Assembly (NCBI GenBank): GCA_012837715.1
Contig: DUQR01000027.1
Span: 1 to 64,000, forward strand
Source of the DNA: Bacillota bacterium
GTDB taxonomy: Bacteria; Bacillota; UBA4882; UBA10575
Direction of reading: 5' to 3'
Length of the DNA: 64,000 nt
Positions 6,383 to 54,343 of the stretch are shown piece after piece (positions within the stretch are counted from its first letter, which is position 1; the number at the start of each line of letters is the position of its first letter). The position numbers were made by a program, and so were the translations under genes. The notes under the pieces were generated by a model. It saw only the letters and a program-made list of their open reading frames with translations, was not told where the DNA came from and did no database searches.

Positions 6383-8923
6383 TTATTCTTCTTCTTTCCT
6401 TTCTTCTTCGCTCTCCCCCGGCTCTTCTTCTTTTAAGCTTTCTTCTCCTCCGCTTTCCCCTCGCTCAGCGTTCGCTTCCCATCCGTCAACTACCCTTGCT
6501 TCTACTTCTGTTTCCATCCGGAGTCCTGCTTCAGCGGTTTCTTCCGCTTCAGTCGCCGCCTCCTTTTCTCCTTCAGCTCCGTCTTCCCCTGCTTCCTCCT
6601 GCCCGGCGGCCACTTTTTCTTCTTCCCCTGCTTCCGTCCAGAATTCTACTTCAGCGGTCTCTTCCGCTTCAATCGCCGCCTCCTCTTCTCCTTCAGTTCC
6701 ATCTTCCCCATCTGCTTTTATGCCTTTAGCTCCCTGGTCAGCGCCGACTCCCACCCCGACCCGGCTTTGGGCTTCTCTCCCTGTCTCCTTTTTCTCTTCG
6801 AAGACAAAATGGCTAATGGTTTCAACCAACAAGTCGGCCATCTGGTGTAATGCTTCCGCCGCATTTCTAGTCGTTTCGGCCATCCCGGTCTGCTGTTCGG
6901 ACGAAGCGGAAACCTCTTCGGCAAAGGCGGCTGTTTCCTCGGAAATCGCGCTAATATTGATAATCGCCTTGATGGTCTGCTCTTTAAAGTCGTTGATGGA
7001 GCTGATATTTTCGGTCATGACACTCATTTGCTTGACCACATTATCCATGGCCACCACCACCTGTTCTAAGGCTCCCCTGGTCATGGTGACGGCCGAGTTT
7101 TGCTCATCAACTACCTTATAAACTTCTTCAGCGGTCACTTTCGATACCTTGGTGTGACCTTCAATCGTTTTTAGAATCCCTTCAATCATCCGCACGGCCT
7201 CTTGGGTCTGGGCGGCTAGTTTATTTACTTCATTAGCCACAACAGCAAAACCCCGTCCCGCTTCCCCGGCGCGGGCGGCCTCGATGGCCGCGTTCAAGGC
7301 GAGGAGATTGGTCTGTTCGGCAATATTCGTAATCACCTCGGTAATTTTACTAATCTGCCGGGCACTGGTATCCAACTGATCAATATTTCCCACAATCGTT
7401 TGGGTAATCTCCTCCGCCAATTTTGCCTTCTCAATTAATCCTTTAATCGCTTCTTGGGTATTCACACTTAACGACCGGGTTGAACTGGTAATCCTCTTAA
7501 CTTCACCGGTTTTACCGATCGTGTCGTCAATTAGCGAAGCCAAATCCGCCATCAGTTTGGAAGCCTTTTCCGCTTCGGTTGTTTGTTCCATCGTCCCCTT
7601 ACTAATCTCAGTCATGGCAGCAGCCACATGGTGAGCCGCTTCCACCGTCTGCACCGAATTACTTTCCATAATGCCGGATCGGTCCTTCACATCACTAATG
7701 GCTTCTTTAGTCGCTACCAGTAAAGCGGCGACCCTTTCCACCATCCTGTTGAAGCCTTTGGCGAGCAGGCCCAGTTCATCTTCGGTTTCTACATCCACTC
7801 GAACTGTCAAATCCCCTTCTTCCATTCTCCCCATCCCGCGCACTACCTTATCTAGGGCATCGGAGATGGTAATGGAAACATACAGCGAGATCAAAACGGC
7901 GATTATCCCCGCCACTACCACTAAAACCGCGGTAATCAGCCCCACCATCCGCGTCTCTCGATACAGGTAGGATGTGGGCGCGATTCCCAACAGATACCAG
8001 TTCTGTCCGAATTCTTTAACGGTAATTTGCACATGTTCACCGGCCAGCACATCATTAAAACTGGGAGCCAACTCTTCCCCTTCCATCAAAGCCCGGAGAT
8101 GTTTCTTCGTTTTTAATAAATCAAAAACGTTCTGGTTAATCTGGTCTTTATACGGACTGGAAACAATCAGGCCTTCTTGATCGATTAACATCGTATAACT
8201 GACCGATATTTTCTCTTCCGTAACCCCGCCAATGCTATAGAAATATTCGTTTAAATATTGATCAATGCTCGCTTCAGCAATGAAGAAAAAGACATTCCCC
8301 AAAACTTCCCCCGTCCTGGGGTTACGAATCATTCTGCCCATGACGAGCAGATATTCTTCCCGGGTCGTACTGGCCTTTATCGGTGAAAACCAAACTATAC
8401 GGCCTTGGGCTTTCGAGACTGTCTCGTTGGACTCGGCTTCTGGAAAAACTGTGGTAAAGAGGTCTGTAAATCTCTTCCCGACATTGATGGTGGCCCCTTC
8501 CGTACTAGTAAACCTCACCGTCACCAGGTTTTTATCGCCCTGACATAAACTGGTGAGGTAATTTTCCAGTTCTTTCATGGCAACAAAACGTTCATAATCA
8601 TCGGCCGTGCCTATATTGATAAACAGCTGGTTAATATCATTTACCGCCATAAAATTATAAGACAGATCCTCATATTTTTTGATCACCAACTCCATATGTT
8701 GCTTACTCTTGGTCAGACTGTCAATGGAATAGTCGGTAATTTTATTCTTAATCGCTTGACGGGAAGTAGAATAGACAATTGAACCAATGATGAGGATTGG
8801 TCCTAAAGAGACCAACAGAAAGAAGAAGATTAGTTTGCGTCTGAAAGAAACGTGTCGTATAATGCGGCCAAATAATCGATCCACAAGCACAAAGATCCAT
8901 TTGATCCGTCCAAACTGCTCCAT
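6383..8923 (-). CDS. Methyl-accepting chemotaxis protein with acidic repeat tail
   Basis: This 846-residue transducer has a transmembrane helix near residues 30-50 and a long extracellular sensor that looks like a Cache domain (about 55-325). A second transmembrane helix lies near 335-360, followed by a HAMP domain. The cytoplasmic signalling domain contains the hairpin tip [21 protein letters not shown]. After the usual end of such proteins (near residue 690) comes about 150 residues of glutamate- and alanine-rich sequence. It contains an internal 40-residue repeat (AEETAE units) and ends in EEERKEEE. No CheW/CheR-binding pentapeptide is visible at the C-terminus. The ligand is unknown. A family I repeat lies directly upstream of its start. 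Confidence 0.93.
6509..6713. repeat. In-frame 120-bp tandem duplication inside the chemoreceptor tail
   Basis: The stretch CTTCAGCGGT(T/C)TCTTCCGC and its surroundings occur at about 6529 and again at about 6649. The exact 120-base offset preserves the frame and yields a 40-residue protein repeat. Confidence 0.8.
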
Positions 8924-9437
8924 TACTCACACCTCACATTTATCTTATTTAATAAATACATCTTGCCGTTCGTGGGAACGATTGCCTTTATCCGCCTTTA
9001 ACCAGCCGGGCCGGATGGTGTTCTCCGTATGACTAGATTTCCTAGCAAAGTATTCCTCGTGAAGCGGAGGTTGAAAACGGGTCAAGTAATCTGGAGGTCA
9101 CAAACAGCCAGTTAAGAAGGGGAAGTGGGAGATGAGAGGTGGGAAGTAGAATGATTCTGTCCTAATCATACTTTAATTTTCGCTAAGATCTCCCTTCTTA
9201 AGCGGCTGCCCGCTTTCAAACGGAGCTGAGCTCTAGAATACGCCAAGAAATTCACCGGAAGAAGGAAAAACCCTTTGGTTCCGGCAGAGACTGTCGCTAC
9301 CATTTTTTTATCTTCATCTTACAGCTATATATTATTAACATCGGTATAATAACAAGAGAAAATAATACTAAATTCGACAGGAAAGAACAATCGTTGGGAT
9401 AGAGATGGAAAAGAGGAAGCATGGGGTATGGTTAAAG
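8924..9437. other. Long intergenic region between rsuA and the chemoreceptor gene
   Basis: No convincing gene is seen in 514 bases. Most of it (about 8960-9290) is a member of repeat family I. The right part (9300-9400) is AT-rich with several -10-like sequences on the minus strand and probably holds the chemoreceptor promoter. That would give a leader of 300 bases or more. Confidence 0.6.
8960..9290 (-). repeat. Interspersed repeat family I, copy A (upstream of the chemoreceptor gene)
   Basis: Read on the minus strand it shares CTTCTTCCGGTGAATTTCTT with copy B near 18690. It also shares CCGGCCCGGCTGG followed by AAAGGCGGATAAAGGCAATC with copies B and C. A part around 9040-9085 matches copy C (CTCCG and CGGAG arms). 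It ends about 40 bases before the start codon. Confidence 0.6.
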
Positions 9438-16261: not shown

Positions 16262-16277
16262 TCTCCCGTTTAATGGG

Positions 16278-16337
16278 CTTTTTACGTAGCCCCTTGCTTT
16301 AACCATCCCAATACAATCTGTTGAGCAATTTCAAAGG
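16278..16337. repeat. Interspersed repeat family II, copy a (half element)
   Basis: CTTTTTACGTAGCCCCTTGC continuing into TTTAACCATCCCAATACAAT matches the left half of copy b at 26180. The right inverted end is missing or too degraded to see. Confidence 0.6.
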
Positions 16338-17310: not shown

Positions 17311-18531
17311 TTATTCTCCTAACCCAAACTCCTCATGTAAGGCGCGAAGCGCCGTTGTCATGTCGTCTTTCTTGACCAAGCAAGCAATATTCGTATGGGA
17401 ATCGGTCGTTTGAAACAAAGGCACCTCCGCCTTGTATAAACCTTGGACGACCCGGGCCATGACCCCGGGGACCCCCCGGATCCCCGCACCGACAATCGCA
17501 ACTTTCGCAAAACCCTTCGCTCCTTCAAATTTCAACCCGGTCGCTGCCAAAACAGAAGAAGCCCGGTCAAACAGATTTTCCTGCACCGTAAAGGTAATCT
17601 GCCGGGGTGAGACCTGAATCATATCCAAACTAATCCCGGCTTCCGCCAGACGGGCAAAGACTTCCAACGCTTTTCCACTGGCATTAACGTCATGCGGACA
17701 GAACAGATTGAATTGGGCTAAATCCGGAATATGGGTAAGCCCGGTGACCATGCGGTCGGTCTTCAGTTCCAACCCGGGGGTAGGAGCTTCATCGGAAATG
17801 AAGGTGCCTTCCTGGTCGGAAAAGATCGACCGGATCATTAAGGGGATTCTTCCTTTCATGGCGATCTCCACCGCCCGGGGATGAATGACCTTCGCGCCTA
17901 AATGGGCCATTTCACAGAGTTCTGTATAGGTCATCGCCTTCAGTAATTTAGCCTGGGGCACCAAGTTCGGATCGGTAGTCATCACGCCATTAACATCAGT
18001 ATAGATCTCCACCGCTTCCGCCTGCAAAGCCACCCCCAGGGCGGCGGCGGTTGTATCACTCCCGCCCCGCCCTAAGGTGGTTATCTCCCCGTCCTGCGTC
18101 TGCCCTTGAAAACCGGCAACCACCGCCAGTTGTTTTCTGTTTAAGCAAGCGAGAATTTTTTCCGGATTAACCTCGATAATGTGGGCATCCCCAAAATCAC
18201 GGTCAGTAATAATTCCCGCCATTCCGCCGGTAAAAGCCTGTGCTTCAAGCCCGTATGCCTTTAAAGTCTGCGCCATCATGACGGCGGAAATTATTTCGCC
18301 ACAAGAAAGTAATAAATCCATTTCCCGAGGGCTACATTGGGGGCAAACCTCCCGGACCATGGCCATCAGCGTATCCGTGGCATAAGGTTGGCCGTAGCGC
18401 CCCATGGCGGAAACGACAACCACCGGCATGGCATCCCGGTTCACTGCTTCTTTAATCCGAGCAACCGCCTTTTCGCGTAGCTCAGCGGTGGCCAGTGAAG
18501 TCCCGCCGAATTTTTGGACCACTATTTTAAT
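17311..18531 (-). CDS. dapG: Aspartate kinase (dapG type), apparently starting at ATT
   Basis: The enzyme phosphorylates aspartate, opening the pathway to lysine and dipicolinate. KIVVQKFGGTSLATAELR starts the kinase domain, GRGGSDTTAAALG is the substrate-binding loop, and two C-terminal ACT domains follow. The family normally begins M-K-I-V-V-Q-K-F. Here the codon in that first position is ATT at 18531, exactly 8 bases after AGGAG. The only upstream in-frame candidate, GTG at 18540, overlaps the ribosome site. The further open frame to 18630 is translation of repeat family I. I therefore call 406 residues starting at ATT. It lies between spoVFB and dapA. Confidence 0.9.
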   Translation of the reverse strand: MKIVVQKFGGTSLATAELREKAVARIKEAVNRDAMPVVVVSAMGRYGQPYATDTLMAMVREVCPQCSPREMDLLLSCGEIISAVMMAQTLKAYGLEAQAFTGGMAGIITDRDFGDAHIIEVNPEKILACLNRKQLAVVAGFQGQTQDGEITTLGRGGSDTTAAALGVALQAEAVEIYTDVNGVMTTDPNLVPQAKLLKAMTYTELCEMAHLGAKVIHPRAVEIAMKGRIPLMIRSIFSDQEGTFISDEAPTPGLELKTDRMVTGLTHIPDLAQFNLFCPHDVNASGKALEVFARLAEAGISLDMIQVSPRQITFTVQENLFDRASSVLAATGLKFEGAKGFAKVAIVGAGIRGVPGVMARVVQGLYKAEVPLFQTTDSHTNIACLVKKDDMTTALRALHEEFGLGE

Positions 18532-18549
18532 GGAGCTCACTCCTTTTAT

Positions 18550-18730
18550 TACTCGCTCGTCGCTCGTATCTCTGATTGCCTTTGCCCGCCTTTTTCCAGC
18601 CGGGGCCGGAGACGCTCGCCACATGACCATAATTTCTTACTACCCGCTTGCCGGCGGAACCAAGCTTCAAAATCCGCCAAGAAATTCACCGGAAGAAGAA
18701 AAGACCATTTAGCCTCGGTGAGATTCGAAC
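18550..18730 (-). repeat. Interspersed repeat family I, copy B (upstream of dapG)
   Basis: On the minus strand it carries CTTCTTCCGGTGAATTTCTT, then CCGGCCCCGGCTGG and AAAGGCGGGCAAAGGCAATC, the same order as copy A. It fills most of the 283-base gap between spoVFB and dapG and ends next to the dapG ribosome site. Confidence 0.65.
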
Positions 18731-18814
18731 TGGCTTTTACTTTTCCACAATTGCTTACTTAAAGTTTTACCAGTTTTCTTTGGAGATTTCAACCTTATTT
18801 TTTCCACCCTATGC

Positions 18815-19393
18815 TCAAAGAAGAACCGGTTGCAGTTGTTCCCCTTGTAAAGCCTGAATGATCGTGGGTGTTAACAATTCTAAATCAGCCACTAAGGACT
18901 TGGGTTTTCTTTCCGGATCATCCTGCCGAAAAGGAACAAAATAGATGGAACGCCGGTTCATAATTAAAGCCAGGTTCATCAGAGTGGCGCCGAGACCATC
19001 ATTGGTGGCAATGGCCAGTACTACCGGACTGTTATTCCGTAACTGCGCCTTACAGGCCAAAGTGACCGGTGTACTGGAAAGCCCCAGGGCTAAACGGGCC
19101 AGCGTCGTTCCAGTGCACGGCGCGACCACCATCACATCGAGGAGCTTTTTCGGACCAATCGGTTCGACCTCCACTAAACTTTGCCAGGGTTCGCGCCCGG
19201 CAATCTCCACCACCTGCTTATAGACGTCCTCCCCCTTTCCAAACCGGGTGTCGGTCCGAAAGATCACTGGAGAGACAATGGGGAAGAGCTCAGCCCCTTC
19301 GGCGCGGAGTTTTTTCATCTGGGGGAGCACATCCGGAATCGTACAGTAGGAACCGGTCAGACCCAAGCCAATACGCATACCTGCTAATTGCAT
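18815..19393 (-). CDS. spoVFB: Dipicolinate synthase subunit B (flavoprotein)
   Basis: The 192-residue flavoprotein is the second subunit of dipicolinate synthase, which makes the spore-core chelator in the mother cell. It begins GMRIGLGLTGSYC, the flavin-binding fold, and has VVAPCTGTTLARLALGLSSTP in two close motifs of the family. NDGLGATLMNLALIMNRR lies near the end. The ATG at 19393 lies 7 bases after GGAGG; frames further upstream lack a site. It follows spoVFA by 35 bases. Confidence 0.95.
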   Translation of the reverse strand: MQLAGMRIGLGLTGSYCTIPDVLPQMKKLRAEGAELFPIVSPVIFRTDTRFGKGEDVYKQVVEIAGREPWQSLVEVEPIGPKKLLDVMVVAPCTGTTLARLALGLSSTPVTLACKAQLRNNSPVVLAIATNDGLGATLMNLALIMNRRSIYFVPFRQDDPERKPKSLVADLELLTPTIIQALQGEQLQPVLL

Positions 19394-19428
19394 TTTCACC
19401 CCTCCAAGCTTATCTCTAAGCATTTCCC

Positions 19429-20325
19429 TCAAAGCTGTCGGCTGAGTTCCTGTTTAATTAAGCCTGGAAGTTTAGTGGCGAGGATCCGCCCTGCCGTAAG
19501 TGGCGCTACTTTTCCCGGAAGTCCCAAAGCTAAAACCGCCCTGATCCGGAAGCGTTCAGCGGCTTCAAAATCAACCCCCCCTGGCGCCGAAGCCAGATCA
19601 ATAATGAGCGTTTCCGGCGCCATCTTTTGGAGCAAGGCGGCGGGAAGCACCAAAGCTGGAATGGTATTAAAGACTACTGCTACTTGGTTGAGCTGCTCGG
19701 CGAGCCGGGTAAGGGTTAACGGCTCACAACCCATTTGCGCGGCCTCCGCCAGTTGCTCCGGATTGCGCGCGGCCACTGTCACCGTCGCCCCCAGCGCTAA
19801 TAAGCGGGGTGCCAAAGCCCGGGCCACCCGGCCGAATCCCAGAACCAGACAGGAAGAACCATCCACGGTAAACGGGGTTTTTTCCATCATTAATTGAATT
19901 GCCCCTTCCGCGGTGGGAATCGCGTTCGGGATGGCAATCCCGTCCTGTTCGGCATATTCGCAGACGCGGATCCCCCTTTCTGTAGCCATCGGTTTCAAGG
20001 AGGAGGGTAGTTTTCCGGTCACAAGCAACGCGCCGCTTTCCATCAAGTCAAAAAAGGCGGCATCAACCTTAATCCGAACCGCCGAATCACTGGTTCGAAC
20101 TATTCCTCTATCATCAGCTCCACTGATCGGGAGGATTACCACTTCCGCTCCAGTCAGCGCCTCTTTAAGACCGGGAGCCGGAATTAATCGGGGTAACTGG
20201 GGGAGACCGGTTAAGCCCAGCGTTTTTACGGTAGCCGCCAACGCCAGTAACGCCTCAGCCACCATCACCTGCCGGTGGTCGCCACCTAATACGGCCACTT
20301 CATTTAAAGCAAAGTTTTTTTCCAA
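19429..20325 (-). CDS. spoVFA: Dipicolinate synthase subunit A
   Basis: This 298-residue NAD(P)-dependent dehydrogenase-like subunit oxidises dihydrodipicolinate to dipicolinate. VAVLGGDHRQVMVAEAL near the N-terminus, GIAIPNAIPTAEGAIQLMM in the middle, and the Rossmann motif LVLGFGRVARALAPRL are characteristic. It begins with TTG a few bases after GGGAGGG. It is preceded by a 155-base gap after dapB that contains only a weak hairpin (20460-20473), so a separate mother-cell promoter is possible. Confidence 0.95.
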   Translation of the reverse strand: MEKNFALNEVAVLGGDHRQVMVAEALLALAATVKTLGLTGLPQLPRLIPAPGLKEALTGAEVVILPISGADDRGIVRTSDSAVRIKVDAAFFDLMESGALLVTGKLPSSLKPMATERGIRVCEYAEQDGIAIPNAIPTAEGAIQLMMEKTPFTVDGSSCLVLGFGRVARALAPRLLALGATVTVAARNPEQLAEAAQMGCEPLTLTRLAEQLNQVAVVFNTIPALVLPAALLQKMAPETLIIDLASAPGGVDFEAAERFRIRAVLALGLPGKVAPLTAGRILATKLPGLIKQELSRQL

Positions 20326-20480: not shown

Positions 20481-21281
20481 CTAATCGATCAGGGCGTCCA
20501 ACCCGTAGACCAAGCCCTTTATTTCTGGAGCTTTCCGGACCGCCAGGATCACCCCGGGCATAAAAGAAGAACGGTCTAAAGAATCATGGCGGATGGTTAG
20601 CGTTTGACCTTGGGCCCCGAAGATCACCTCCTGGTGGGCAATCAAGCCGGGCAAGCGCAGACTATGGATCTTGGTGCCCAAATACTCGCCCCCGCGTGCG
20701 CCGTTAATCTTCTCCAGCGGCGCCGGTTTGGTCCCCGGTTCCGCCACTCGCCCGGCGGCAATCAGTTCCGCCGTTTTCAAGGCGGTCCCGGAAGGCGCAT
20801 CAATCTTTCGATCATGGTGTAATTCAATGATCTCCACGTCCGGGAAATAGCGCGCCGCCTCTTGGGCAAAACGCATCATTAAAACGGCGCCCAGTGCAAA
20901 ATTGGGGGCAACAATGATTCCTTTCCCCATCCCGACTGCTAACTCAGCAATCTCTTCCAGGTTTTCACTGGTTAACCCGGTGGTCCCGACCACAGCGGCC
21001 ACTCCCGCTTCTAAAGTTGCTTTAATATTATCCATCACCGTCAAAGGGGTGGTAAAATCCACCACCACGGTCGGCGTCGTGTTCCTTAACGCGGCCGCCA
21101 AATCCCTTTCCACGGTAATCCCTAAATCACCAAGGCCGCAAACCTGGCCGATTTCTTGTCCTTGGCCCACCTTATCAACAGCTCCGACCAACTCCAGGTC
21201 AGCTTGGGCAACAACTGCTTTGACTACTTCCCGCCCCATGCGTCCACAGGCGCCGTTAACAAGAACCCGTATATTGTCCAT
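20481..21281 (-). CDS. dapB: 4-hydroxy-tetrahydrodipicolinate reductase
   Basis: DapB reduces the DapA product with NAD(P)H. The 266 residues contain the dinucleotide motif VLVNGACGRMGREV at the start, DFTTPLTV, GTTGLTSENL, the substrate-binding ELHHDRKIDAPSGTAL and the conserved HDSLDRSSFMPGV. The ATG at 21281 lies 6 bases after GAGGTGG. In transcription order it precedes spoVFA, spoVFB, dapG and dapA, so dipicolinate and lysine synthesis are grouped. A family I repeat lies just upstream. Confidence 0.96.
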   Translation of the reverse strand: MDNIRVLVNGACGRMGREVVKAVVAQADLELVGAVDKVGQGQEIGQVCGLGDLGITVERDLAAALRNTTPTVVVDFTTPLTVMDNIKATLEAGVAAVVGTTGLTSENLEEIAELAVGMGKGIIVAPNFALGAVLMMRFAQEAARYFPDVEIIELHHDRKIDAPSGTALKTAELIAAGRVAEPGTKPAPLEKINGARGGEYLGTKIHSLRLPGLIAHQEVIFGAQGQTLTIRHDSLDRSSFMPGVILAVRKAPEIKGLVYGLDALID

Positions 21282-21319: not shown

Positions 21320-21470
21320 ATACTCTCGTCGCGCGTATGATGATTCATGATTGCTTTTACCCACATTTACCCCGCCGGGGCGAAGGGTCTTCTCCGTAGG
21401 GTTTGAATTTCCGGGCGAAGTATGCTTCGCGAAACGGAGGGCGCAAGCGGGTCCAGCGACTATTCGGGCT
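21320..21470 (-). repeat. Interspersed repeat family I, copy C (upstream of dapB)
   Basis: On the minus strand it has CCCCGGCGGGGTAAATGTGG then GTAAAAGCAATC and, like copy B, GCGCGACGAG. Its upstream part forms nested hairpins: CTCCGT/ACGGAG enclosing CGAAGTATGCTTCG. It ends about 40 bases before the dapB start. Confidence 0.6.
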
Positions 21471-26152: not shown

Positions 26153-26179
26153 ATTAACCCTCCTTTATTCTTCATTGAA

Positions 26180-26293
26180 CTTTTTGCGTTGTCCCTTGCT
26201 TTAATCATCCCAATTCAATATATTGACCGGGTGATTCAAACAAAACACTATCTTTTGAATTGGAAGCCTGTTTAATGGTTTCAACGCAAAAAG
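26180..26293. repeat. Interspersed repeat family II, copy b (most complete)
   Basis: The 114-base element begins CTTTTTGCGTTG and ends in its exact complement CAACGCAAAAAG. Inner parts CCAATTCAATATATTG and its weaker inverse near the right end (TCTTTTGAATTGG) extend the inverted repeat. It looks like a small MITE-type insertion between ruvX and the DUF1292 gene. Confidence 0.75.
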
Positions 26294-31999: not shown

Positions 32000-32048
32000 C
32001 GATCAATATGTTTTATTGGAATGATTGAAGCAAAGAACAACGCAAAAG
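32000..32048. repeat. Interspersed repeat family II, copy c (inverted, half element)
   Basis: On the minus strand it reads CTTTTGCGTTGTTCTTTGCT then TCAATCATTCCAATAAAACA, matching the left half of copy b. It lies between thpR and the small basic protein gene. Confidence 0.7.
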
Positions 32049-32066
32049 CCAAGTAAGGCCGGCGCA

Positions 32067-36200: not shown

Positions 36201-36244
36201 TGCAATCTCCTTCCTAAAATAAGTGTTATTAAATTCAGCGTAAG

Positions 36245-36295
36245 GGTTTTTGCGTTGTCCTTGGCTTTAACAATGTGAATAACAACGCAAAAACC
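36245..36295. repeat. Interspersed repeat family II, copy d (short form)
   Basis: A perfect 14-bp terminal inverted repeat, GGTTTTTGCGTTGT and ACAACGCAAAAACC, encloses 23 bases including CCTTGGCTTTAAC. It is the shortest member and could fold into a stable hairpin. It lies between the single-pass protein gene and a terminator. Confidence 0.8.
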
Positions 36296-40418: not shown

Positions 40419-40495
40419 AAGCCTTCCCATCTTTCCTAATCTGAGAGAACCCCACCAGTCGGCTCTCAATTCGTAATTATGCAATACCGTAACCG

Positions 40496-42781
40496 CTATA
40501 AATTAATCTTTACTAGATCCCGATCCATCTTATTCATACAGCTCTTCAATTTCGAAGCCAAACTCGGATCTTCCTCCAAGCAAGCGGCACGGACCTGCCG
40601 GAGAAGATCAATCGCCCGCCGGAAGGCGGAAACAATATCCCCTTCCTGTAAATCGGTCAGCTCAAGCAACTCAAAGAAGTCCCACCCTTGACTCCACCGG
40701 TATGCCAGCGGAGAAAGACTGGGGAAAAACCGGATTTCCCGTTCATCCACACCGTAACGGTAGATCAGTTCCCTGATTATACCCTTAATCGGTTTTTGCT
40801 CAAAGGGTAACAAACCGGGCCGTGGTGACCGTTCGTTCTTCCGGGGCTCATAATCCACCGCCACCATCACAGCGTTAATCTGATCCTCATCCCACTCGTG
40901 AAAGAAACCGGCAAAATAAAATTCGGTCAACAACAACTCCTGAGCGTAGATCTGGGCGCCAAATTCACCCCGGGGCAACAAAACCCCGTCCTCCAGATAA
41001 GCCATCTCCTCTAGGATACCGGCCTTCGCGGCCAGATCCTCCTCAAAACGACCAGCTACCTTTAGAGAAGACACCCTTTCTTCCAAACCCAGTTGCTCAT
41101 GGTAAAGATCCTCATAAAACTCAATCCGCCGGACGCAATGTTTTTGTTCTTCCGCCGAACAGGTACGGGCCGCTGTCTCGGCCAGGGCTGCTTTGAGCTG
41201 GTTAATTTCCCGGGCGGCCGCCGCTTTTCCCGCCCGGCCTTTGATAAAGCGCAACCGCCGCTCCTGTTTACGTAAGCGTTTTTTCGCCAAGGCTCGCGCC
41301 TGCGGACAGGACAGACTTCCCCACTCGGGACAGATCTCCCTCCGTAATTTACCCGTTTCCAACCGGACGGTGGACAAACGGTTTTCTAACTGGATTTTAT
41401 CGTTGCGGGCTTGAAAAGTAGCAAAGTTTTGGTTTAAAATTGCCGAAATCTGTGGTCGCTGATGGTTTTTGAAGAGATTGAGCACCGAGTTATAACTAAG
41501 GTTAAACCGGCTTGTTAACTCCTCAATCTCCGCCGGATCGTCGCTGGGAAATTCTTCCTGGCGATAGCGGTCCGGATCAGCCAGGATATAGACAAAACCC
41601 CGTTCATCAATCCCGCGACGGCCGGCCCGACCGGCCATTTGGAAATACTCCAGGGTGGTCAAGGGACGAAAAGAGAGCCCATCCCATTTGGTGGGGGCAT
41701 CGAAACAGACACTCCGTACCGGATAATTGATCCCGACGGCAAAGGTTTCCGTAGCATACATCACCTTCACCAGGTTCAACCCGAACAAGATCTCCACCAG
41801 TTCTTTAAGGGCGGGTAAAAGTCCGGCGTGGTGAAAGGCAATCCCCTGTCGAAAAAGGGGTTTCAAGCGGTGAATGGTCGGCCAATCCTCTAACCCGTAT
41901 TTGGCGATGATCTTGGTAATTACCTCATCTACCTGTTTCTGCTCGTCCCGGGAAAGGAAATTAGCCTTTTCACTTAGTTCAACCGCCTTAAGCTGACATT
42001 GCATCCGACTGAAAACAAAATAAAGGCAAGGTAAACCCTTCCGGCGCCGCACGGCTTGGACCAGATCTAGATGGGAAAGGTTCCGTTCCCGCCGGGACGT
42101 CGGCTGCTCCGTTTTGATCTCCGCTTGCCTCTTTTTTGCCCAATATTTGAAGAGTTGATCACGGGTGGTTATCCCGGTGAGGGGATGGAAAACCCGATGT
42201 TCCAACGGAACAATACGGTCGGTTTTCTCGACGACTTTAACTTCGTGCCCTTTGATCTCCCGGATCCAATCGGCCAATTCTTGCGCGTTGGGAATGGTAG
42301 CCGAAAGTCCTAAGAGGCGGATTCCCGGCGGCATAAATATAATTGACTCTTCCCAAACCGTGCCGCGGCTTTCATCGGAAAGATAGTGGATCTCGTCAAA
42401 TATAACATGGGAAAGTCCTTGCAGTTCCTCTTTCTCCTGTTGCAGCATGTTCCGGAAAATTTCAGTGGTCATAATAACCACTTCCGCCTCGGAGTTAATG
42501 ACCACATCCCCGGTGATAATCCCTACCTTCTCTTCTCCGTGCCACGCTTTAAATTCCTTATATTTTTGGTTGGAAAGGGCTTTAATCGGTGCGGTATAAA
42601 TCACCCTTTGCCCCTCTTCGATCGCCCGCGCGATGAGATAATCGGCGATTAAAGTTTTTCCCACCCCGGTCGGCGCCGAAACCAACACTGAATAACCGTC
42701 CAGTAAATAATCGATGGCTTCCTTCTGAAAATCATCCAACAGATAATTCCCAAATTTAATCTCGGTCCTTGCCCGCATCAT
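40496..42781 (-). CDS. Ski2-like superfamily 2 helicase with DSHCT domain
   Basis: The 761-residue helicase has Walker A SAPTGVGKTLIADYL, motif Ia YTAPIKALSNQKYKEF, the DEIH box in FDEIHYLSDESRG, LSATIPN, and the motif V/VI region ETFAVGINYP and QMAGRAGRRG. Then come a coiled region (residues 470-600) and a C-terminal DSHCT-like domain ending LQEGDIVSAFRRAIDLLRQV. Family relatives (Ski2, Mtr4, and actinobacterial HelY) unwind RNA for decay. It is an uncommon gene in Bacillota. GAGGAG lies 5 bases before the ATG-ATG start. Confidence 0.92.
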   Translation of the reverse strand: MMRARTEIKFGNYLLDDFQKEAIDYLLDGYSVLVSAPTGVGKTLIADYLIARAIEEGQRVIYTAPIKALSNQKYKEFKAWHGEEKVGIITGDVVINSEAEVVIMTTEIFRNMLQQEKEELQGLSHVIFDEIHYLSDESRGTVWEESIIFMPPGIRLLGLSATIPNAQELADWIREIKGHEVKVVEKTDRIVPLEHRVFHPLTGITTRDQLFKYWAKKRQAEIKTEQPTSRRERNLSHLDLVQAVRRRKGLPCLYFVFSRMQCQLKAVELSEKANFLSRDEQKQVDEVITKIIAKYGLEDWPTIHRLKPLFRQGIAFHHAGLLPALKELVEILFGLNLVKVMYATETFAVGINYPVRSVCFDAPTKWDGLSFRPLTTLEYFQMAGRAGRRGIDERGFVYILADPDRYRQEEFPSDDPAEIEELTSRFNLSYNSVLNLFKNHQRPQISAILNQNFATFQARNDKIQLENRLSTVRLETGKLRREICPEWGSLSCPQARALAKKRLRKQERRLRFIKGRAGKAAAAREINQLKAALAETAARTCSAEEQKHCVRRIEFYEDLYHEQLGLEERVSSLKVAGRFEEDLAAKAGILEEMAYLEDGVLLPRGEFGAQIYAQELLLTEFYFAGFFHEWDEDQINAVMVAVDYEPRKNERSPRPGLLPFEQKPIKGIIRELIYRYGVDEREIRFFPSLSPLAYRWSQGWDFFELLELTDLQEGDIVSAFRRAIDLLRQVRAACLEEDPSLASKLKSCMNKMDRDLVKINL

Positions 42782-43110
42782 CCGTACTCCTCAATCTAAA
42801 CTTTCCATCCGGTGTTCAGTCTTCCCCCAAATTGGCAGTCCCTTTCGTTTTCCGGTCGTGTATTCGATAGCCAAAACTGGACAATTCTAGGTCAAGCCAA
42901 AAGTGGCGTAAACTACACCAAGCTCTATTCTTCTTAATTATTCGCCGTTCCACGGTTAAATCCCTTTTTGCCCCTCTTCGGCCACCGATAAAAAAGCCTC
43001 TTCCATAAGAAAGAGGCTTTTGAAGCAAAGGTTGAAAGAAGGCCAAGCGACAAGAAGTCGCGAGCCGCTTTAGTTTCAGGAGGAACCAGAAAGCTGGCGG
43101 TCGCCAGGGC
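42782..43110. other. Intergenic region between hydA and the helicase gene
   Basis: In 329 bases I see no gene. It holds the hydA operon terminator (42990-43021). Closer to hydA there are two further hairpins, CTGGCG-GT-CGCCAG near 43091-43104 and GCGAC-AAGAA-GTCGC near 43046-43060. The remainder shows nothing recognisable. The helicase promoter should lie in the left part. Confidence 0.6.
42990..43021 (-). terminator. Rho-independent terminator of the hyd operon
   Basis: On the minus strand AAGCCTCTT pairs with AAGAGGCTT across an 8-base loop, followed by a T run, about 90 bases past the hydA stop. Confidence 0.88.
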
Positions 43111-54240: not shown

Positions 54241-54320
54241 CCTTTTGCGTTGTAACCGCTAAAAATGATTCCAATCCAATCTATGGTGGTTTCTGTTAAA
54301 GCCAAGGGCAACGCAAATAG
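54241..54320. repeat. Interspersed repeat family II, copy e
   Basis: An 80-base element with ends CTTTTGCGTTG and CAACGCAAATAG and the inner family stretch GATTCCAATCCAAT. The right end read inverted gives GCCCTTGGCTTTAAC, shared with copies b and d. It lies in the leader region of the plus-strand transporter gene. Confidence 0.75.
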
Positions 54321-54343
54321 CCCAATGAAAATGGGGGTTTATC

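Follow-up and report, generated by a model that had tools for sequence, protein, structure and literature searches.

The question raised by this locus is why three related stretches of DNA, which we call family I, stand on the minus strand before three minus-strand genes, two of which belong to the lysine/dipicolinate operon, in a 64,000-nucleotide stretch of a Bacillota genome (hereafter the window, meaning this whole stretch). The initial annotation offered two answers, a structured leader RNA common to the three genes or a mobile repeat, and its statement that all three copies have the same orientation relative to the gene is correct. The genes are dapG for aspartate kinase (17311-18540, minus strand; NCBIfam NF006068, 546.9 bits against a cut-off of 474), dapB (20481-21281, minus strand; TIGR00036, 275.5 bits, cut-off 122) and a gene for a chemoreceptor-like protein (6383-8923, minus strand), which matched several methyl-accepting chemotaxis models, all far under their equivalog cut-offs. 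The gene for dipicolinate synthase subunit B, dpaB, lies at 18815-19432 on the minus strand (TIGR02852, 244.3 bits, cut-off 229). Since the most likely start of dapG is the GTG at 18540, the second copy lies inside the operon, between dpaB and dapG. We consider it very probable that two related genera share family I as a mobile palindromic element, non-autonomous and MITE- or REPIN-like, which has spread through their genomes by copying, and that its copies close to dapG, dapB and the chemoreceptor gene were inserted there and are not conserved regulatory leaders.

The copies in the window differ in completeness. Copy A (8972-9292, minus strand; downstream of it lies the chemoreceptor-like gene) is a complete element with an altered, enlarged central loop, in which one apical hairpin is replaced; the right-arm profile R1 matches it at 8972-9048, the left-arm profile R2 at 9209-9286, and R3, a structural model derived from 17 copies of family I, at 9033-9255 on the plus strand with 77.7 bits. 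Copy B (18550-18752, minus strand, with approximate ends) is a lineage-specific insertion in the dpaB/dapG gap that has both arms (R1 at 18565-18641, R2 at 18643-18720), its apical hairpins being deleted. Copy C (21325-21461, minus strand), with the ends GTCGCT...GCGACGAG, is a solo right arm located 5' of dapB (R1 at 21342-21420). R3 requires the apical tips, and copies B and C are unmatched by it. A fourth copy, D (43041-43102), is a fragment of the apical two-hairpin part, which has its GGA-loop strand on the plus strand between two minus-strand genes and matches model positions 48-109 of R3 (33 bits, E 3.1e-6).

The similarity of A, B and C is far beyond chance. In genome searches, B as a query found A (E=1.2e-10, 79% over 71 bases) and nine other places, A found 16 other places, and C found only itself; C is linked to A and B through the right-arm profile. 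The additional string reported as common to A and B, CTTCTTCCGGTGAATTTCTT, is indeed identical in both. The string described as common to the right ends is exact in B, while A has CCGGCCC-GGCTGG TTAAAGGCGGATAAAGGCAATC and C has TCGCCCCGGCGGGG TAAATGTGGGTAAAAGCAATC. A family of three copies was a large underestimate: the right-arm profile has 52 matches at E<=0.1 (41 at E<=1e-4) and the left-arm profile 18 matches at E<=0.05 in this genome. The part common to A and B is the left arm, and the main feature had been overlooked: this arm repeats the right arm in inverted and diverged form, so that the unit is a long palindrome.

In complete copies, which were found in several genomes, the order in gene direction is the left arm, two short hairpins and the right arm. 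The left-arm consensus in this direction is CCGGGGCC.AATGGT..TTCC..GTGAATTTCTTGG.GTATTCTA.. and that of the right arm is ..AGAATACT.T.CCAAGAAATTCAAGTC.CGGAGAACACCATTCGGCCCCGGCTGG. The core measures about 240 nt, and the outer extensions are less conserved, often having GTCGCYC at the left end and GAGCGAC at the right end. The complete form is a long imperfect stem, with about 70-77 consensus pairs in all, carrying two short apical hairpins, whose loops A(N)GGA(N) and AGGAGG are on the strand opposite to the genes; GGA is kept in the first loop in 16 of the 17 complete copies, and in the second loop likewise in 16 of 17. Folded as single-stranded DNA, a canonical copy reaches -79.9 kcal/mol (z -12.6). 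When the window copies were folded as RNA and compared with shuffled sequences, A and C were slightly better (z -1.21 and -1.91, respectively) and B was worse than the mean of its shuffles (z +0.90).

Compensatory changes, for which the initial annotation advised looking, are present among the complete copies. Of 19 near-complete copies, the core alignment excluded L047, and the pair counts excluded both L047 and L067; in the 17 complete copies, 12 of 51 consensus pairs have changed on both sides with pairing kept, compared with 4.5 in shuffles and at most 6 with the partners slid. For 70 pairs common to the folds of both strands, G-U (34) and A-C (38) show no clear strand preference, and thus the covariation does not prove RNA function. 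This count leaves out the pairs that occur in the fold of one strand only, some of which favour the GGA strand (for example U-G 9, C-G 5, U-A 2), and for this reason it is not decisive on the strand.

The sites of family I are polymorphic between close relatives. A DapG ortholog is present in all eight genomes of the genus, and the element stands before dapG in the own genome only, being absent in 7 of 7 congeners. In the congener G005, whose DapG is 89% identical, AACTTTAAGTAAGC runs straight into GACAAAGGGGTGAGC, where the own genome has about 200 bases extra, which marks B as a recent insertion. At the dapB site the element is found in the own genome and in one congener (G001), and is absent in the other six of the seven: G002, G003, G004, G006 and G007 are without it and G005 has a different insert. 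The consistent placement before the same genes that a leader would call for has therefore not been found (dapG 0/7, dapB 1/7). The site of copy A is occupied in G005 too. Other pairs, occupied/empty or complete/partial, are the own locus L004 and locus L007, each against G005, G001 locus L066 against G005, and G004 locus L115 against window positions 40434-40525. These pairs vary in clarity, and some alignments are poor at the junctions; they have yielded no exact element ends, and no target-site duplication has been established, B included. At two places complete and partial copies share the same site, namely complete L061 (G007) against right-only L122 (G004), and complete L121 (G013) against partial L209/L260 (G012), and partial copies accordingly fit as remnants. 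A glmS ribozyme (L064 1832-1985, L060 1036-1188) adjoins an orthologous element pair in G005 and G003.

Gene context was classified for 138 right arms, which remained from 145 matches after removal of six opposite-arm self-matches and one match at a locus edge. Of these, 80 are tandem and co-oriented with the genes, 8 tandem and anti-oriented, 24 convergent, 15 divergent and 11 other. When the next gene is co-oriented, its start codon is at a median distance of 95 bases, and many copies are less than 100 bases from a start. Using GC skew on the element strand for the 110 of 138 copies outside long ORFs and with both neighbours of at least 100 aa, we classified 104 (6 were unclear), and 91 are on the leading strand and 13 on the lagging strand (p 1.4e-15). 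This skew was taken from 3-kb loci and partly reflects the coding strand; moreover, since some copies are orthologous, the orientation and context counts are not fully independent. In convergent regions the ratio is 16 leading to 4 lagging. Divergent regions, at 6 to 3, depart from a strict rule, and so do four anti-gene copies found in leading-strand regions. Only five copies lie beside tandem genes on the lagging strand, three following replication and two following the genes, so that replication and gene direction are poorly separated. In larger windows, mainly taken for odd contexts, the skew is positive in most convergent cases, and no trend is seen in divergent or anti-gene contexts. On the whole, replication direction explains the orientation bias better than gene function does, and A, B and C share their orientation relative to the genes because right arms follow the leading strand.

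Random orientation of further copies had been named as the sign that would favour a mobile repeat, and the strong bias is contrary to it. The mobile repeat is nevertheless supported by the dozens of copies, some of them truncated or in convergent intergenic regions, and by sites that are empty in close relatives. A structured leader RNA that acted in cis on all three genes, as an attenuator or a riboswitch, would agree with the 80 tandem co-oriented right arms, with the short distance to the next start and with the covariation. This reading is, however, largely refuted by the empty sites before dapG and dapB, and the 24 convergent copies, where orientation bias persists with no gene to lead, speak against it, as do the poor RNA fold of B, the only slightly better folds of A and C and an Rfam scan of the window and the A-C region, in which only tRNAs were found at the gathering level and no match fell over the window copies; at E<=1 the one additional match overlapped a tRNA. 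A scan for promoters and terminators flanking B and C gave results near the shuffled expectation. We thus regard a leader as very unlikely, and a tempting but wrong leader-RNA annotation is removed from the lysine/dipicolinate operon. We also find it unlikely that family I is a repeat, mobile now or in the past, whose bias reflects selection against one of the orientations (as would arise, for instance, if one strand stopped transcription) and not an insertion preference. Although harm to operons by anti-oriented insertions would also produce the tandem bias of 80 to 8, the bias persists at 16 to 4 in convergent regions, where both orientations are equivalent to the two genes.

For the preferred reading, mobility of a palindromic element with an insertion preference, we infer the following mechanism. 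The complete form, a branched DNA hairpin, would probably be the active form, and a putative trans-acting enzyme would recognise this hairpin in single-stranded DNA form, the replication fork being the most likely place. Insertion would occur into intergenic DNA in a preferred orientation relative to the fork, and decay after insertion, by loss of an arm or a tip, would then leave fragments such as B, C and D.

Family I is dispersed within a limited group of genomes. The right-arm profile at E<=1e-4 detected it in 9 of 17 genomes of the order, belonging to 2 of 7 genera, and the left-arm profile at E<=0.05 in all eight genomes of genus g1; combining both profiles, the carriers are 10 of the 17 genomes, consisting of 8/8 of g1 and 2/2 of g4. 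An exact-pattern scan of a species-genome collection gave 25 stretches, 18 of which were confirmed by the element profile at E<=1e-3 and come from six MAGs labelled Bacillota or Hydrogenispora sp., and the remaining seven had no profile match at that threshold. A pattern match in a viral contig was at chance level and was dismissed.

ERIC and Correia-type MITEs are imperfect palindromes of roughly 100-300 nt located in intergenic regions. By description, which is the level of this comparison, family I is like them as an intergenic imperfect palindrome and is set apart by its branched tip with two conserved loops. REPINs, or REP doublets associated with the tyrosine transposase RAYT, are likewise presented in one account as inverted pairs that form a hairpin as the presumed replicating form, being non-autonomous and extragenic and leaving single halves as remnants (PMC3116915). 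Family I has this organization of an inverted doublet forming a hairpin with solo units as remnants, whereas a REPIN in that account consists of two short REPs (PMC3116915) and the core of family I is about 240 nt. A RAYT was rejected as the enzyme for family I, since a search with PF01797 (Y1_Tnp) found this transposase in none of the 10 carrier genomes. GTAG repeats are, in the source at hand, reported from other phyla (PMC3733652).

The closest known structure is TwoAYGGAY (RF01731). Like family I, it has several copies per genome and a long basal stem on which two apical hairpins with NGGA loops stand side by side, and the consensus of the 17 complete family I copies shows the same arrangement of two adjacent apical hairpins on a long stem. 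The loops are AGGAGG and A(N)GGA(N) in family I and AYGGAY in TwoAYGGAY, the flanking letters being different. A canonical copy from G005 matched RF01731 over its full length (model 1-168) on the GGA strand with 34.6 bits, the gathering threshold being 43. None of the 17 genomes of the order has a match at or above the cut-off, and the own genome has none at E<=0.01; sub-threshold matches are found in three of the 17, namely G005 (family I) and two g3 genomes. A scan of 11 sources together with stricter filters gave no match, while one canonical copy matches when scanned alone, which amounts to weak evidence. Judged by the curated threshold and by the letters of its loops, family I falls outside TwoAYGGAY; judged by design, the two structures are of one kind.

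In the reverse direction, we searched with R3 in 60 windows of other Bacillota containing TwoAYGGAY matches over the cut-off, picked for contig size and spread across genomes. There were 21 matches at E<=0.01, of which 20 are at the RF01731 place, all 20 on the same strand, and one elsewhere; at the RF01731 place three more windows have E 0.036-0.1 and the remaining 37 have none. Against four copies of the g3 element, R3 gave E 3e-18 to 8e-16, which are rough E-values. This g3 element (L137, L139, L140 and L141, in G009 and G010) is a separate, highly similar, multi-copy long hairpin with the tips GCCGC-AGGAG-GCGGC and GGGAC-ATGGAG-GTCCC. In a survey that scored only six candidates per genome, TwoAYGGAY was found in 50 of 398 sampled genomes of the phylum, 33 of them over the cut-off, and in 17 of the 50 five or six of the six scored candidates match. 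Of the 60 sampled copies, 2 are inside a called ORF. In G255, longer palindromes enclose the copies at L310-L313; the outer arms of these palindromes vary from locus to locus and yet stay complementary, and the near-identical copies at L310 and L311 have compensating differences.

TwoAYGGAY appears in a 2010 table as a probable RNA whose role is probably not cis-regulatory (PMC2864571), and the parts of the TwoAYGGAY literature consulted here hold no description of it as mobile. Because it is itself multi-copy in many genomes, TwoAYGGAY may be a class of mobile hairpins. Family I, having the same design, shows site turnover and strand bias and so bears on its nature. Tentatively, TwoAYGGAY and family I could be two branches of a single class of mobile branched-hairpin elements that extends across the phylum and would be moved by a putative enzyme recognising paired GGA-loop hairpins; the structure would then be conserved as a copying substrate and not as a regulatory RNA. 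This is possible but doubtful. The prediction that TwoAYGGAY copies share the strand bias did not hold: in contrast to the strong bias of family I, the 60 sampled copies are 21 leading, 32 lagging and 7 unclear (p 0.17).

Another rival is that family I is a transcribed TwoAYGGAY-like RNA, the GGA loops of which bind and titrate CsrA. TwoAYGGAY has been proposed to bind CsrA (PMC4333381), each loop has GGA in 16 of the 17 complete copies, and a CsrA gene is present in the own genome and in 9 of the 10 carriers. Against this, in 91 of 104 copies the GGA loops lie on the strand that runs counter to the leading strand, and hence to most transcription nearby, so that read-through transcripts would show UCC loops. 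CsrA is also found in 4 of 7 non-carriers. In addition, no CsrA was found in the three genomes of g3, and this genus has its own dispersed element with two GGA loops, detected by RF01731 in two of the three genomes; the tip-requiring model does not match B and C. The CsrA sponge is therefore, in our judgement, very unlikely.

The window also contains repeats of other kinds. A second dispersed repeat, with the sequence TTTTTGCGTTGTCCCTTGCTTTAA.., occurs in both orientations with copies about 76-92% alike, at 16269-16324, 26171-26229 and 36244-36282 on the plus strand and at 32000-32050 and 54294-54322 on the minus strand, and locus L173 contains something similar with its halves inverted. Within the C-terminal coding part of the chemoreceptor-like gene, there is a 107-nt direct repeat at 6483-6709 (80%, spacing 120).
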